This document shows, in pieces, positions 1,386 through 38,418 of a stretch of DNA of 45,463 nucleotides (its first letter is position 1; each line of letters opens with the position of its first letter). A program made the translations under genes and the position numbers. The notes under the pieces were generated by a model. That model saw only the letters and a program-made list of their open reading frames with translations. It had not been told where the DNA came from and made no database searches. This DNA is from an uncultured Pelagibacteraceae bacterium. GTDB taxonomy: Bacteria; Pseudomonadota; Alphaproteobacteria; Pelagibacterales; Pelagibacteraceae. Location of the stretch: assembly GCA_902523495.1 (NCBI GenBank), contig CABYZU010000006.1:1-45463 (forward strand), in the 5' to 3' direction.

Positions 1386-3056
1386 ATGTATTTCAAAAAT
1401 ATAAAATTTTTCTTGATTATTATATTACTTTACCAAAATCCTTTGCATTCTAAAAGCGCTAGTTTTGATGATTTTGACTCTAAAAATTTATCAAAATATT
1501 TTTCTGGAATTGTAGCATTTGAAAACAAAAATAATTCAAAAGCATTAAATTTTTTTAATACCTCTAAGATTTTATTAAATAAGCACGAACCCTATTTAAA
1601 AAGATATGTTTACTCTTTAGTTTTAGAAAATAAGATAAATCAAGCCATAAATGTAATTAAACAAAATAAAAATAAATCTGAATTTTTTGAAAAATACATA
1701 TTATTAACAATAGACAGCTTAAGAAGAAATGATTTTTCAAAAGCATTAGATTATATATCTGAGACCAAAAAATATACAAAGGTTAACCAATTTAATTCAG
1801 CAATTTTAGATAATTTGAGAGACTATATTATCGTATTCAATGAAAAAAGACTGCCTAGTGATATAAAAGATTATGGAAATCTATCAATAATTTCAACAAC
1901 CTTTCAAAGGTGCTATTTAGAAGACCCTAAAACAAAAACTTTTTTCTCTAAGTTGATTAATAATGATGATGTAGACTTAACTAGGTACACTTTTTTTTAC
2001 CTGGCATATCTAATTGAAAATAATCAAATAGAAGAAGCCAAAAAAATAACTGGAGATATTAAATTTATTAACGCATCGTTACTTTTGTCTCAAGTTAAAA
2101 GTTGGATTGAAAATGGCAAAGAAAAAAAAATCAATGATGTTTTTTCATGCAAAAATCATGGTGACTTAATAAGTGAATTTTTGTTTCTTATATCCAATTT
2201 GTATTCCACTCAAGACAATTTTTTCAAATCTAATTTTTATTTGTCTTTGTCCAATTATTTGAATCCGAAATTTCATTATAATTTATCATTAATAGTTGAA
2301 AATCGATATTCAAATGAAGAATTTGATCGAGTTAAAAAATTATTACGAGAATTTGAAAAAGAAGATGATTTTTATTATTGGTATAGATTAAAAAAAGAGG
2401 CACAAATAATTTCAAAAGAAATTGGCCAAAAAGAGTCATTAAAATTTATTAAGTCTAAATTTGAAAAAATTGAAAAACCAAATGAAAAAATTTTATTTGA
2501 TATCGCAAATTTCTACAGAAACGCAAAAGAATATCAACAAGCAATAAAATATTACACCATATTGTTAGGAATAGTTGGTGACGACTTAGAAATTAAATCA
2601 GATTTACTCTATAGAAGAGGTGCGAGTAACGAACGAATGGGGAATTATGAGGAAGCAGATAGAGATATGCTTTTATCTCTAGAAATTGATCCTGATGATG
2701 CATACGTTCTAAATTACTTGGCATATTCTTGGTTAGAGAGAGATCATAAAATTAAAGATGCAATGCAAATGTTAGAGAAAGCATACTCTTTAAAAGAAAA
2801 TGATCCTTACATAATTGATTCAATTGGTTGGGCTTATTATCTAACTGATGACCATGCAAAAGCAGAAATATATTTAAAAAGAGCTGTCGAACTAATGCCA
2901 GATGATGCGATTGTAAGTGATCACTATGGAGATATTCTTTGGAAGTTAGGAAGAAAAATTCAAGCAAGATATTTTTGGAAAAGTATATTTAAAATGAAAG
3001 ACGTGGATGAAGAATTATTACAAAAAATAAACTCAAAAATGATTAAAGGAATCTAA
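1386..3056 (+). CDS. secreted TPR-repeat protein
   Basis: A 556-residue protein with an N-terminal hydrophobic segment (about residues 8-18, FFLIIILLYQ) followed by a polar region, fitting a Sec signal peptide, so it is probably periplasmic or envelope-attached. The C-terminal third (about 365-545) has at least four consecutive tetratricopeptide repeats; alternating bulky and small residues are clear in RRGASNERMGNYEEADRDM, LNYLAYSWLERDHKIKDAM and DSIGWAYYLTDDHAKAEIYL. TPR arrays mediate protein-protein contacts. No catalytic motif is visible. It lies one base upstream of ispE, a neighbourhood seen for TPR proteins in other alphaproteobacteria. The exact role is unknown. Confidence 0.85.
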   Translation: MYFKNIKFFLIIILLYQNPLHSKSASFDDFDSKNLSKYFSGIVAFENKNNSKALNFFNTSKILLNKHEPYLKRYVYSLVLENKINQAINVIKQNKNKSEFFEKYILLTIDSLRRNDFSKALDYISETKKYTKVNQFNSAILDNLRDYIIVFNEKRLPSDIKDYGNLSIISTTFQRCYLEDPKTKTFFSKLINNDDVDLTRYTFFYLAYLIENNQIEEAKKITGDIKFINASLLLSQVKSWIENGKEKKINDVFSCKNHGDLISEFLFLISNLYSTQDNFFKSNFYLSLSNYLNPKFHYNLSLIVENRYSNEEFDRVKKLLREFEKEDDFYYWYRLKKEAQIISKEIGQKESLKFIKSKFEKIEKPNEKILFDIANFYRNAKEYQQAIKYYTILLGIVGDDLEIKSDLLYRRGASNERMGNYEEADRDMLLSLEIDPDDAYVLNYLAYSWLERDHKIKDAMQMLEKAYSLKENDPYIIDSIGWAYYLTDDHAKAEIYLKRAVELMPDDAIVSDHYGDILWKLGRKIQARYFWKSIFKMKDVDEELLQKINSKMIKGI

Positions 3057-3057
3057 A

Positions 3058-3903
3058 ATGAATTATTCCAGTATAAAGTCATATGCTAAAATTAATTTAG
3101 CTCTTAATGTTACTGGAAAAACTTCTGGACTACACCAAATTGAGAGTATTGTAGGTTTTATCTCTCTACATGATATTATTTTTATTAAAAAAATCCAATC
3201 TAAAAAACATATAATTTCATTCTATGGGAAATATTCAAAAAATATTAACAAAAAAAATACAATTTCAAAGTTGTTAAAAATTTTAGAGAAAGAAAAGATA
3301 CTTACAGATCATAGATTTGAGATAAAAGTAAAAAAATACATACCATCAAAATCTGGATTGGGAGGTGGATCAATGAATGCTGCAAATATATTAAAGTATT
3401 TGATTAAGAAAAAGTTTATAAAACCCAGTAAAAGCCAATTAATTTCAATTTGTAAATTAATAGGTTCAGATGTAGCTTTGGGACTTAATTCTACTTTTAC
3501 AGTTTTAAAATCAAATAATCATATTAAAGAGTTTAAGAATTGTAAAAAATTTTATGTCCTAATTGTCAAACCCAGTTTTGGATGTTCAACAAAAGAGATA
3601 TATTCAGGCGTTAAAAAATTCTCAAAACCTAAATTTAGCAAAATCTCAAAGAAAATGATTAGTTTTGATTATTTAAGAAAACTCGATAATTCTCTTGAAG
3701 TGATTTCACTATCTAAGTTTCCAAAATTGAAAAATATTAAATATTTTTTAGAAAAATCTTCAAATAAGAGTTTTGTAAGAATGACTGGATCAGGTTCAGC
3801 AATTGTCGCATATTTCAAATCAAAAAAGTTATGTGATTATGTAAAAAAAAAATTCATTAGAAAATATAAAAATTACTGGTGTAAAGTTGCAAAAACTATA
3901 TAA
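3058..3903 (+). CDS. ispE: 4-diphosphocytidyl-2-C-methyl-D-erythritol kinase
   Basis: IspE phosphorylates 4-diphosphocytidyl-2-C-methylerythritol in the MEP isoprenoid pathway, supplying precursors for ubiquinone and undecaprenyl phosphate. It is a GHMP kinase. The N-terminal SYAKINLAL has the catalytic Lys11. The glycine-rich ATP loop SGLGGGSMNAAN is near residues 98-109, slightly altered from GLGGGSSDAA. IGSDVAL carries the conserved catalytic Asp, and MTGSGSAIVAYF is the C-terminal GHMP motif. The 281 residues are normal for the family. The gene follows the TPR gene after one base and is followed 31 bases later by tRNA-Gln. Confidence 0.93.
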   Translation: MNYSSIKSYAKINLALNVTGKTSGLHQIESIVGFISLHDIIFIKKIQSKKHIISFYGKYSKNINKKNTISKLLKILEKEKILTDHRFEIKVKKYIPSKSGLGGGSMNAANILKYLIKKKFIKPSKSQLISICKLIGSDVALGLNSTFTVLKSNNHIKEFKNCKKFYVLIVKPSFGCSTKEIYSGVKKFSKPKFSKISKKMISFDYLRKLDNSLEVISLSKFPKLKNIKYFLEKSSNKSFVRMTGSGSAIVAYFKSKKLCDYVKKKFIRKYKNYWCKVAKTI

Positions 3904-3934
3904 ATTCTTTCTTTTGTGTTATACGAAATTAAAT

Positions 3935-4008
3935 TGGGGCGTAGCCAAGCGGTAAGGCACGGGTTTTTGGTACCTGCATCCTAGGTTCGAATCCTAGCGC
4001 CCCAGCCA
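3935..4008 (+). tRNA. tRNA-Gln (anticodon TTG)
   Basis: A full cloverleaf of 74 bases includes an encoded CCA. The acceptor stem TGGGGCG (3935-3941) pairs with CGCCCCA (3998-4004), with discriminator G4005. The anticodon stem CGGGT/ACCTG encloses loop TTTTGGT with anticodon TTG. The T-arm CTAGG/CCTAG encloses a standard TTCGAAT loop, and the D-loop has the usual GG. It lies between ispE and cca on the same strand, so it is likely processed from a shared transcript. An extended -10-like TGTTATACG at 3917-3925 could give it a promoter of its own, but I see no convincing -35. Confidence 0.97.
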
Positions 4009-4011
4009 AAT

Positions 4012-5286
4012 ATGAAAAACTTTTTTAAAAAAATTTTCTCGAGCTCAAAAAATCTTAACTCATTCAAGAATAATATCACAAGACTTAAATTAATAACGCC
4101 AGTTAAAAAAATTTTTGAGGCTATCAATTCTTACTCATCTGAAAGTGAGATTAGGTACGTTGGAGGTTGTTTGAGAAAAATATTAAATAGTGAAAGAGTA
4201 GACGACATAGATTTAGCAACAAATTTAAATCCTTTTGAGGTTTCCGAAATCTTAAAAAAAAATAATATTAATTTTTATGAGTCAGGAATAGAACATGGAA
4301 CGATTACAGCAATCATAGACGATCATAAGTTTGAGATAACATCTTTAAGAGAGGATATTTTTACAGATGGTAGACATGCAAAAGTGAAATTTTCTAATGA
4401 TTGGAAAAAAGATGCTTTGAGAAGAGATTTTACAATTAATTCTATATATTCTGATTTAGATGGAAATCTATTCGATCCCTTTAACGGAAAAAAAGATATT
4501 GAAATAGGCCAGGTATGCTTCATCGGTGACGCTGAAAAAAGAATTAAAGAAGATTATTTGAGGATATTAAGATACTTAAGATTCTTTTTAAATTATTCCA
4601 AACAACCCCACAAAGAAGAAATAATTAAAGTAATAAAAATGAATATTAATGGCATTTCTTTAATATCAAAAGAAAGATTGTTAGATGAATTAAAAAAATT
4701 ATTAAAATCAAACCAATTAGAAAAGTTATCTAAAGATAAATTCAGCATCGATTTAATATTGCTAATTTTTCCAGAACTAAAAAACTTAAAAAGTGTCATC
4801 GATACAATTAAAGTTAAAAAAAAAATGTTTGTTAAATTAGATTTGATATTTATTTTATTCTTAATGATAATAGATGAAACAGATAATTTAGAATATTTTT
4901 TATATAAATATAATATTTCAAAAAAAGAACAAAAAAGAGCCAATGTAATTAGTAACTTTTATAACGAAAGAAAAGAGTCAAAAATCTTGAATGAAGCTAA
5001 TTTAAATAAAGTTTTATATTATAATGGTAAACAGGCAGTATTAGATATTTTAAATTTTAAAATTATAAAAACAAAGAAAACTGATAAAAAATTATTAAAT
5101 TTATTAAAACTATATAGTAGTAAAGTCACGCCTAACTTACCTATTGGTGCCGATTTATTAATGACTAGATATAAAATACCAAAGGGAAAGCAATTAGGAA
5201 GCACTCTTAAATTAATTGAGGAGGAGTGGATAAGGAATAATTTTGAAATATCAGATAAACAAATCGATAATATTGTTAAAGGTTAA
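4012..5286 (+). CDS. cca: CCA tRNA nucleotidyltransferase / poly(A) polymerase family protein
   Basis: This enzyme adds or repairs the 3' CCA end of tRNAs. The nucleotidyltransferase palm shows [11 protein letters not shown] (residues 48-58, GG loop) and DDIDLAT (64-70, the DxD metal carboxylates), then [10 protein letters not shown] and [21 protein letters not shown], followed by the poly(A)-polymerase head domain ([12 protein letters not shown]). The 424 residues match alphaproteobacterial class II enzymes. The family includes poly(A) polymerases, so CCA addition is inferred. The ATG lies only three bases after the encoded CCA of tRNA-Gln. The stop is interlocked with that of convergent greA in a shared TTAA. 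Confidence 0.9.
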
Positions 5287-34287: not shown

Positions 34288-34749
34288 ATGTCATTAAAAG
34301 TAACCATTGAGACAGAATATAAAAATGCCTTAAAATCTAAAGATAAGATTAAAATCTCAACTTATAGGTTAATTTTATCATCAATTAAGGATGTTGATAT
34401 TTTAAATAGATCCGGTCCAAATAAAAAAGAGACAGATGATGAGGATATTAAAAAATTATTAAAAAAGATGATGAAGCAAAGAGCCGAATCAATTGATATT
34501 TATAAAAAAAATAATAGATCTGATTTACTAGAAATTGAGCAGAATGAATTTAATATTTTATCAAGTTTCCTTCCTAAACAACTTAATGACGAAGACACTA
34601 AAAAAATATGTCAGGAAATTATTTACAAATTAGGTGCTAACTCTATTAAGGATATGGGAAAAGTAATGGGAGAATTAAAAAAACAACATGCTGATGAAAT
34701 TGATTTTTCAAAAGCTGGAACCTTTATAAAACAATTATTAAATAAATAA
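34288..34749 (+). CDS. GatB/YqeY domain-containing protein
   Basis: A YqeY-family protein of 153 residues, homologous to the C-terminal tRNA-binding tail of the GatB amidotransferase subunit. ALKSKDKIKISTYRLILSSIKDVDI at the N-terminus, MMKQRAESIDIYKKNNRSDL in the middle and MGKVMGELKKQHADEIDFSKA near the end are typical. The precise function is not established. The stop shares a base with the dnaG ATG (TAATG); the yqeY-dnaG-rpoD order is common. It lies 125 bases from divergent carA. Confidence 0.9.
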   Translation: MSLKVTIETEYKNALKSKDKIKISTYRLILSSIKDVDILNRSGPNKKETDDEDIKKLLKKMMKQRAESIDIYKKNNRSDLLEIEQNEFNILSSFLPKQLNDEDTKKICQEIIYKLGANSIKDMGKVMGELKKQHADEIDFSKAGTFIKQLLNK

Positions 34750-36524
34750 TGAAATATCCAAAAGAATATTTAGATGAGATTAAAACACGCCTAAAAGTTT
34801 CAAGTGTTGTTTCTAAAGTTGTGGCCTTAAAAAAAAGAGGAAAAGAATTCGTTGGATTATCGCCCTTCAAAAACGAAAAAACACCATCATTCACAGTTAA
34901 TGATGAGAAGGAATTTTATCATTGTTTTGCAACTTCTGAGCATGGAAATATTTTTGATTTTATTATGAAAACCCAAAATTTAAGATTTGGAGAAGCAGTA
35001 AAATATCTTGCGAATATTGCAGGAATGCAACCATACCTGTTCACTAAACAAGATGAAGAGAGAGAAAAAAAATGGAAAGAGTATTTATTAATTTACAGTA
35101 AGTATGTTGACTTTTATCACAACGAACTATTAAAAAATAAAAATCATTCAAATGCTAGAGATTATTTAAAGAACAGGTCTTTAGGTAAAGATGAAGTAAA
35201 AAAATTTAAGATTGGTTTTATTGAAAAAAATCCGAGTTTTTTTGATAAATTAAAAAAGGAATTTAGTGAAAAGACTTTATTAGAAAGCGGTTTATTTTAT
35301 TTAGATGAGAAGAAGAATATTTTCTTAGAAAGATTCAGAGGAAGACTAATATTTCCAATAAATAATATTTCAGGCCAACCGATAGCACTAGGTGGAAGAA
35401 TAATAGAAAGTTCAGATTATTTAGCGAAATATATAAATTCACCAGAGACAACTTTTTTTAAAAAAGGTTCAAATCTTTATAATCTAGATATAGCAAGAAA
35501 ATTATCTAATAAAATAGATCATATTTTTTTAGTTGAAGGTTACATGGATGTAGTTGGACTGAGTAAGAATGGAATTGAGAATGTAGTCAGTAATCTTGGG
35601 ACGTCTTTAACTGATAAACAAATTTCAACATTAAATCAGTTTTTTGATGACATTATAATTTGTTTTGATGGCGACCAAAGTGGTTACAAAGCTGCCTTAA
35701 GAGCTGCTGAAAATTCCATAAAAGAATTAAAACCTGAAAAACAAATATCCTTTTTATTTCTAGCAAGTAAAGAAGACCCTGATAGTTTTGTGAACAAAAA
35801 TGGTAAAAATTTTTTTCTAGATTTTACTAAACAAAACAAACTATCTATTCATCAATTTATTTTTAATCATTACAAAAAGCAAACTGATAACAACCCATCA
35901 TCAATGGCAATATTCGAGAAAAAATTGAGATTTATAGCAAATTCGATTAAAGATAATTTTATTAAAAAATATGTTCTTGAATATTTTTTAGAGAAAATAG
36001 CTGAATTAACACCCCATACTAATCAAAATAAAAGCAAGTTTTTTATAAAGAAAGCAAGATCTCTTGCTTCAACAAAAAAACTTTTTAATGAAAGCCAAGC
36101 TATAACAGGTATAGAGTTGAAAGAATTCTCTTTACTATATTTACTTATTCATAATTTATTTTTTTTCAGAACGAATATTCATCTAATTGAAAATATTAAG
36201 TTACTCACAGAAATCAATAAGCAAATATTCAATTCAATAATCTACCACTTGAAGTCTAGTGAGGAGATTGATATTAAAAATCTTAATTTGGATGAACAAC
36301 TGCTAGATAAGATTAACAAGTTTGCACCAATCAAACATATTCTTAAAAATAAAAATAAAAATGAGAGTCGATTGATTGAGTTATTAGAAGATATTTCCAA
36401 AGATTTATTCAATTTTGATTTAGAGTTAAGAATTCAAGAATTAGAATCGAAATTCTCAGAGGATTTGAGTGAAACGACATTTAATAAGCTAAAAGAGCTA
36501 AAAAACGAGAGAAAAACCAACTAA
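34749..36524 (+). CDS. dnaG: DNA primase with degenerate zinc-binding domain
   Basis: DnaG lays RNA primers at the replication fork. The N-terminal CHC2 domain keeps its framework (FVGLSPFKNEKTPSFTVNDE, EFYHCFATSEHGNIFDFIM), but of the four zinc ligands C-x2-H-x17-C-x2-C only Cys59 remains; the others are Ser38, Lys41 and Thr62 at identical spacing. The TOPRIM core is intact (FLVEGYMDVVGL, CFDGDQSGYKAALRA, EDPDSF), as is GRLIFPINNISGQPIALGGR. The C-terminal helical region (about 430-591), expected to bind DnaB helicase, is present. The 591 residues are normal. It is followed 67 bases later by rpoD. Confidence 0.95.
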   Translation: MKYPKEYLDEIKTRLKVSSVVSKVVALKKRGKEFVGLSPFKNEKTPSFTVNDEKEFYHCFATSEHGNIFDFIMKTQNLRFGEAVKYLANIAGMQPYLFTKQDEEREKKWKEYLLIYSKYVDFYHNELLKNKNHSNARDYLKNRSLGKDEVKKFKIGFIEKNPSFFDKLKKEFSEKTLLESGLFYLDEKKNIFLERFRGRLIFPINNISGQPIALGGRIIESSDYLAKYINSPETTFFKKGSNLYNLDIARKLSNKIDHIFLVEGYMDVVGLSKNGIENVVSNLGTSLTDKQISTLNQFFDDIIICFDGDQSGYKAALRAAENSIKELKPEKQISFLFLASKEDPDSFVNKNGKNFFLDFTKQNKLSIHQFIFNHYKKQTDNNPSSMAIFEKKLRFIANSIKDNFIKKYVLEYFLEKIAELTPHTNQNKSKFFIKKARSLASTKKLFNESQAITGIELKEFSLLYLLIHNLFFFRTNIHLIENIKLLTEINKQIFNSIIYHLKSSEEIDIKNLNLDEQLLDKINKFAPIKHILKNKNKNESRLIELLEDISKDLFNFDLELRIQELESKFSEDLSETTFNKLKELKNERKTN

Positions 36525-36591: not shown

Positions 36592-38418
36592 GTGGAAAGA
36601 ATAATTACTAAATCGTTTGCTAGATTGATGGGTAGAGGAACCCATCGTGGATTTATCACATATGAGGAACTTAGCAAATCTCTTGGCAAACGGAATCTTT
36701 CAGATGAAAACTTGTCCCAAGCTTTTATTCATATTTTAGATGAGAAAATTATATTAGTTGAAAAAAAATCGGACTTTAAGGTATTAAGAAAAAAAGAAAA
36801 CTCTTCCAAAGAGGAAGGTAGAACAATTGAAAAAAGTGATGACCCAATAAGAATGTATCTTAGAGAAATGGGTGGCGTTGAGTTATTGTCCAGAGAAGGA
36901 GAAATAGCTATAGCGAAGAGAATAGAGGCAGGAAAGGACGTTATGTTGATCGCTTTGTCCCAAAGTCCAATTACTGCTCAACAATTTTTTGATTGGGATG
37001 AGAAATTACAAAATGATGAAATTCTTGTTAGAGAAATAATCGATATAGATACAAATTATATGGAAGATGAAAATACTGGTCCAAGTGCGAAACAAAAAAA
37101 TGCTGGAGAGGATGAAAAAGATGACAATTCAGCCGATGAGAGTGATGATGACTTTAATCCAACACTTGCAGCAATGGAGTCCGAAATAAAACCAAAAGTT
37201 CTTAAGACAGTTCATTTGCTTACAAAAGAATATCGTAAATTAATAAAATATCAAAAAGAGAAGCTAAATTGTGTTCTCAATTCTAAAATTTTTTCAACTT
37301 CAAAAGAAAAAGGATATGAAAAAATTGTCAACGATATTTTAGAAAATATTAAGTCACTCCAATTATCTCCATCAGTATTAGAAGAACTTGTGCAAAAGCA
37401 TTATGTAGAAAATAGGAAGGTAATTTCATTAGAGGGAAACCTTTTAAGACTAGCAATGAACCAAAAAATACCAAGAAATGAATTTATAAAGTTCTATATA
37501 GGAAATGAAATTAATCCGAATTTGAAAAAATTTTTAGACACAAACACTTTATGGAAGCAATTTTTTAGTAAAAATAAAGAAGAATTCAAAAATATTAGAG
37601 AGAGATTAGTTGAAATTAGTCACAAACTTGGGATGTCAGTTACTGATTTTAAAAAATTAGTTAGTCGTGTTCAGAAAGGTGAAAAAGAGTCTAGGATAGC
37701 TAAAAAAGAGATGGTAGAGGCTAATTTAAGATTAGTTATCTCTATTGCAAAAAAATATACAAATAGAGGTCTTCAGTTTTTAGATTTAATTCAGGAAGGT
37801 AATATTGGATTGATGAAAGCGGTGGACAAATTTGAATATCGAAGAGGATATAAATTTTCTACATATGCAACTTGGTGGATAAGACAAGCAATAACCAGAT
37901 CAATTGCAGATCAAGCAAGAACAATTAGAATTCCGGTGCACATGATTGAGACAATAAATAAAATTGTTAGAACGCAAAGACTTATCTTGAGTGAGTTTGG
38001 TAGAGAAGCTACTCCAGAAGAGTTAGCCAAAAAACTTAGAATGCCTCTAGATAAAGTTAGAAAAGTTCTAAAAATTTCAAAAGAACCTGTATCTTTAGAA
38101 AAACCAGTTGGGGACGAAGAAGATAGTAGCTTGGGAGATTTTATAGAAGATACAAAAGCTTTAGCGCCCTTAGAACAGGCAATTAAATCAAATTTAGGAG
38201 AAGCAACTACAAAAATACTCTCGACTTTAACACCTAGAGAGGAGCGTGTTTTAAGGATGAGATTTGGTGTTGGGATGAACACGGATCATACTTTAGAGGA
38301 AGTTGGATTACAGTTTTCAGTAACGAGGGAAAGAATACGTCAGATAGAGGCAAAAGCTTTGAGAAAACTTAAACATCCAAGTAGGTCAAAACAACTTAAA
38401 AGCTTCTTAGAAAGTTAA
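36592..38418 (+). CDS. rpoD: RNA polymerase primary sigma factor
   Basis: Housekeeping sigma-70. An N-terminal region 1.1 (to about 60) and region 1.2 ([21 protein letters not shown], 85-105) are followed by an acidic non-conserved insert. Region 2 has [20 protein letters not shown] and [20 protein letters not shown] (core binding and -10 recognition), region 3 follows, and region 4.2 is [20 protein letters not shown] (-35 recognition). The start is GTG at 36592, judged from region 1.1 alignment. The 608 residues are normal. tRNA-Val follows the stop after three bases. Confidence 0.97.

Follow-up and report, generated by a model that had tools for sequence, protein, structure and literature searches.

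The window, i.e. the whole 45,463-nucleotide stretch of SAR11 DNA analysed here, carries on its forward strand a dnaG gene for DNA primase (34749..36524), an uninterrupted open frame of 591 amino acids just as the first-pass annotation had read it. Immediately 5' lies an ORF of 153 amino acids on the same strand (34288..34749), whose stop overlaps the dnaG start and which, going by the usual alphaproteobacterial gene order, is presumably YqeY-like; on the 3' side the ORF list gives a gene for a sigma-70-family factor (36592..38418, forward strand), rpoD-like from a reading of its sequence. The protein scores 385.8 bits against the equivalog model TIGR01391 (cut-off 283.6), is matched by the Pfam models DNAG_N and Toprim, and finds solved DNA primases with phmmer. 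Its residues 4-94 match the Pfam Zn_ribbon_DnaG model (PF01807, the CHC2 profile) at 100.9 bits (cut-off 24.9), and together with AlphaFold and a VIA-align comparison to structure 1d0q this places the N-terminal CHC2 domain at residues 3-95 (34755..35033, forward strand). The RNA polymerase core with TOPRIM follows at 35115..35798 on the same strand, delimited by Pfam and by conservation of positions, and has the catalytic residues E263, D307 and D309 as well as K227 and K239 all in place. The C-terminal region (residues 421-591; 36009..36521, forward strand), presumed to be the helicase-binding domain, is present and gave no match to the Pfam models; together with the linker it is the least conserved part of the protein in the pN/pS comparison described below. 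The profile search found a single CHC2 match in the window's genome, and likewise one each in the SAR11 genomes G207 (99% complete) and G098 (100% complete), so that no zinc-bearing second copy is seen in any of the three.

Of particular interest is the CHC2 domain itself, which lacks the CHCC ligand set. Where the four-ligand pattern C-x2-H-x17-C-x2-C would stand, sequence and alignment place, at the fitting spacing and on the forward strand, Ser38 (codon TCG, 34860..34862) in the first ligand column, which is Cys in CHCC relatives; Lys41 (AAA, 34869..34871) in the second, which is His in those relatives; Cys59 (TGT, 34923..34925) in the third, the one ligand retained; and Thr62 (ACT, 34932..34934) in the fourth, again Cys in CHCC relatives. 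The loss of three zinc ligands of four, as first claimed for this gene, is thus confirmed from the sequence. The basic strand at residues 29-32 is retained in zinc-free and CHCC DnaG alike.

Comparison of 37 zinc-free with 142 CHCC representatives from the class shows that the two states are separated by five columns, namely 38, 41, 61, 62 and 64. Two of these, at Ala61 (34929..34931, forward strand) and Glu64 (34938..34940, forward strand) of the window protein, are not ligand positions but switch along with the ligands, something that the first-pass annotation had not mentioned: column 61 is Ser (33/37) or Ala (4/37) in zinc-free proteins vs. Gly in 140/142 CHCC proteins, and column 64 is Glu or Lys in 33/37 vs. 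Ala in 110/142. The third ligand column is Cys in the zinc-free representatives except for five of the 37, which have Asp. Jensen-Shannon values for the five switching columns run from 0.69 to 1.00, and no strong coupled change appears in the catalytic core, the best column anywhere outside the domain reaching only 0.30. In the full alignment of 462 rows, where some genomes are present more than once, 256 rows are CHCC, 204 are zinc-free and 2 are unreadable; all of the zinc-free rows fit the pattern S-x2-[KNQSTGA]...[CD]-x-[SA]-[ST], the remaining readable rows are CHCC, and intermediates between the two number zero among the 460 readable rows, repeat genomes included. The zinc and zinc-free forms of CHC2 are all-or-none alternative states, and the switch between them is local.

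The region around the lost ligands is under strong constraint. Across the window and 29 other loci of the same genus (435 pairs, seven regions of DnaG compared), pN/pS is lowest, at 0.035, in the knuckle region of residues 36-66, followed by 0.093 for the whole domain (residues 3-95), 0.109 for TOPRIM and 0.140 to 0.329 for the four other regions, values that are to be read only relative to each other since pS is near saturation (0.56-0.67). An AlphaFold model of the window's domain built from an alignment of zinc-free sequences only reaches a pLDDT of 94.0 and superposes on 1d0q with Z 16.9 and an rmsd of 1.2 Å over 98 residues, much as the domain of a CHCC control does (pLDDT 93.2; Z 16.1, 1.6 Å over 98 residues), although a good model is no proof of a metal-free fold, AlphaFold knowing the family and drawing zinc folds without their metal. 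The catalytic residues are present in all 204 zinc-free rows wherever the column is covered. Decay of the domain is rejected on the pN/pS values, the predicted intact fold and the intact catalytic core; together with the open frame, these bear out the original reading of substitution rather than decay, and the structure prediction that had been proposed as a check on it gave an apparently intact fold. No new conserved set of Cys or His appears at residues 2-99 of the 37 zinc-free representatives, which fits the suggestion, also made at the outset, that the domain may rest on other contacts.

Within the window's own lineage the zinc-free state is universal as far as it could be typed. All 29 loci from the same genus (L033-L061) have SKCT at the four ligand columns, which rules out a local sequence error, and a search of 117 genomes across the order, 102 of which gave a match, led to 47 typed genomes, all 47 of them zinc-free; the check proposed in the first-pass annotation, whether any relative within the lineage retains the full ligand set, therefore turned up none. 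Among the matches listed, 60 of 61 records with Pelagibacter in their titles are zinc-free and the other is an unreadable fragment, the pattern behind these records being one that fixes several framework residues. The zinc-free state is fixed in this lineage to the extent that it has been typed. In one genome of the same genus (G353:C3:21402-23167) the dnaG match is split in two, the pieces overlapping and containing several stops, owing either to a frameshift or to a fault of assembly.

The trait is not special to SAR11, however. An even draw took in 240 class genomes, of which 229 gave a domain match and 11 did not; 200 were typed and 29 with a match were left untyped. Among the loci behind this typing, 30 are the best scorers to the Pfam model, a choice that leans toward CHCC, and others were listed as best scorers to a zinc-free model. 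CHCC was found in 168 of those typed and the zinc-free form in 32, so that a sizeable minority of Alphaproteobacteria carry it, again a point beyond the first-pass annotation. At the level of family codes, 118 are CHCC, 18 are zinc-free and one (f29) is mixed, with G028 zinc-free and G159 CHCC. Named zinc-free records include Bradyrhizobium (7), Afipia (2), Nitrobacter vulgaris, Filomicrobium, Rhodomicrobium and Aestuariispira insulae, along with one Xanthobacteraceae MAG and two Hyphomicrobiales MAGs, while CHCC Alphaproteobacteria include Paramagnetospirillum, Haematospirillum, Fodinicurvata, Emcibacter, one Sneathiellales MAG and several Rhodospirillales MAGs. A trait confined to SAR11 is thereby ruled out. 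Outside the class, CHCC was found in all 30 typed genomes of other Pseudomonadota, mostly the best scorers to a zinc-free model.

Several peculiarities of the domain were seen in passing. Two CHCC genomes of the class, L433 (G087:C19, around 2989-4218) and L434 (G228:C246, around 3381-4601), have their DnaG interrupted, immediately ahead of the third zinc ligand, by a long insert that stays in frame and is intein-like. A short insert before the first ligand, marked by a D-x-[RK]-K-type motif and, further on, by GD, occurs in CHCC loci of family codes f4, f23, f156, f162 and f163 (L405, L408, L414, L415, L417-L420, L424, L425 and L427-L431) and makes a third flavour of the domain. The non-alphaproteobacterial genomes G433 and G567 each have one or more extra, weaker CHC2 matches, perhaps from primases of mobile elements.

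In fold and length the window's domain agrees with the solved CHC2 domains of Geobacillus (Bacillus) stearothermophilus (1d0q, Z 16.9) and Aquifex aeolicus (2au3, Z 14.9), with which it also shares its framework motifs and its place in the protein; unlike them, it has three of the four ligands replaced, plus columns 61 and 64. A primase-type zinc domain likewise devoid of its ligand cysteines is found at the N-terminus of metazoan Twinkle, as described in the accessible text of PMC3610141, and the window's model matches the human Twinkle fold at Z 7.1. That precedent in a related primase, together with the three missing ligands, is what could be said for regarding the SAR11 domain as degenerate and dispensable. 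Twinkle, however, has by the same account lost its primase motifs and activity as well as the zinc cysteines, whereas the SAR11 DnaG core is intact; with the lowest pN/pS of any region compared falling on residues 36-66, catalytic residues retained wherever covered, an alignment free of partly lost states and a fold predicted to be intact, degeneracy seems highly improbable. Residual metal binding through Cys59 and partners such as His58 and His65 is somewhat less so, though still improbable. These residues are indeed frequent in the zinc-free representatives (His58 in 34/37, Cys59 in 32/37, His65 in 34/37), but His58 and His65 are frequent as non-ligands in CHCC proteins too, column 59 is Asp in 5/37, and in no further column of residues 2-99 do Cys or His reach 6/37.

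Zinc economy offers another line of explanation, in a narrow and a broad form. The narrow one, an adaptation peculiar to SAR11 in sea water poor in zinc, draws on the uniformly zinc-free DnaG of typed SAR11 and is in essence the scarce-zinc proposal of the first-pass annotation; it fares badly, as Bradyrhizobium, Nitrobacter, Afipia, Rhodomicrobium and others have the same state and the zinc sites of ClpX and LigA are kept in SAR11. In the 13 SAR11 genomes searched, the window's own included, the four cysteines of the C4 zinc site of ClpX are present in 9/9 loci read; for LigA, likewise searched in 13 genomes, they are present in 7/7, the window's own incomplete genome giving no LigA match. 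The named non-marine carriers refute the exclusive form of such an adaptation, and we regard it as scarcely credible. The broad form, an old move at the level of lineages to zinc-free information-processing proteins of which DnaG is one part, is unlikely too, but considerably less so. The accessible text of PMC3087516 describes an almost complete replacement of zinc-binding ribosomal proteins by zinc-free forms in Alphaproteobacteria and horizontal movement of zinc and non-zinc S4 genes, and the C- ribosomal proteins it treats, S4 for example, resemble DnaG in having two discrete states, in being core information-processing proteins and in their patchy distribution over lineages. They differ in that whole genes or paralogues are exchanged there, while dnaG is a single-copy gene that switches within one domain. 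An older trend away from structural zinc across the class is possible; against it as the explanation for DnaG stand the 168 of 200 typed class genomes that keep the CHCC form and the C4 sites retained in SAR11 ClpX and LigA.

How the zinc-free state came to be scattered in this way was approached with trees of the catalytic core (residues 100-420) and of the domain, using a representative set of 205 rows that leaves out incomplete and near-identical ones and a subset of 82 rows, which is further thinned by the removal of ten CHCC rows that were distant or on long branches and by random sampling of the remaining CHCC rows. The core tree of 205 rows requires 20 parsimony changes of state, at least six of them forced by well-supported branches, and on the core of the 82 rows a single zinc-free clade is rejected (lnL 146 worse, p-AU 0.003), so that a simple vertical single origin is rejected. 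With the six signature columns removed, the domain (89 columns, 82 rows) needs 6 changes as against 14 on the core, and a single zinc-free clade is not rejected, the tree held to it being 7.85 better (p-AU 0.587); the power of this test is limited, in that a clade of 26 CHCC neighbours, held together on the domain as a control, is likewise not rejected at the 0.05 level (lnL 68.7 worse, p-AU 0.076). The domain and the core of DnaG have differing histories. A clear case seems to be the DnaG of Nitrobacter vulgaris Ab1 (L104, NZ_MWPQ01000049.1), in which three parts of the domain match that of Bradyrhizobium LMTR 3 (L145) at 0.82, 0.97 and 0.97 and the core at just 0.52, compared with 0.81 to 0.98 for nine other rows of Nitrobacteraceae type; from its sequence it looks like a recombinant, with a Bradyrhizobium-like N-terminal domain and a catalytic core that is not.

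Multiple convergent switches, each independent, as opposed to a single origin followed by recombination, have somewhat less than an even chance of being the right account. The 20 changes on the core tree, six or more of them forced, and the rejection of one clade there speak for them, as does the tree of the domain flanks alone (59 columns), which still needs 14 changes; the mere 6 changes on the domain without its signature, where one clade is not rejected, speak against them, as does the parting of domain and core by recombination in the Nitrobacter protein. With the domain favouring one cluster, the flanks requiring 14 changes and the control group not rejected, both a single origin and several are credible. 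A bolder proposal, which we offer tentatively and think rather doubtful, is that the N-terminal domain acts as an exchangeable zinc/zinc-free cassette, its six-column signature (five of the columns switching) having arisen once and been recombined between unlike cores, possibly shifting the preference for Okazaki start sites. Exchangeability has a parallel in T7 primase and plant Twinkle, where chimaeras have shown the zinc and polymerase domains to be exchangeable modules, at least in the part of PMC10557236 available; those domains, unlike that of SAR11 DnaG, hold their zinc through four cysteines.

The observations taken together suggest that SAR11 DnaG very probably has, as a fixed feature, a metal-free but folded and selected template-recognition module in a working primase. 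The side chains of Ser, Lys and Thr, with neighbours 61 and 64, would join the two knuckles through hydrogen bonds and packing instead of zinc, and the domain would go on working as primase zinc domains normally do, helping to recognise the start site on the template beside the polymerase domain, a retained function to which the constraint on its sequence points. In Bacillus subtilis, stable binding of DnaG to the template requires the zinc domain (accessible text of PMC5429622), and in T7 and plant primases template recognition is set by the zinc domain, which one enzyme can take over from another (PMC10557236, in the part available). The zinc-free form would then be one of two alternative states of a single module in Alphaproteobacteria. 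The same complete replacement in a sizeable minority of alphaproteobacterial relatives makes it look like a stable working alternative, neither damage nor a private marine adaptation.

No description of a zinc-free DnaG was found in the titles and abstracts of the open-access papers listed, most subscription journals lying outside that scope. DnaG sequences of the zinc-free kind occur in rhizobia and other Alphaproteobacteria, so database curators may have noticed the state. SAR11 bacteria are abundant, and zinc-free DnaG may be common in the sea. The zinc domain is regarded as a constant component of primases in bacteria and is assigned a role in template sensing, the precise nature of which is called unresolved in PMC6163395, as far as its accessible text goes. 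A large natural set of working metal-free primases makes that role testable. The zinc or zinc-free state also makes a sharp and readily scored marker for tracing alphaproteobacterial evolution, provided one bears in mind that the domain and the core can part.
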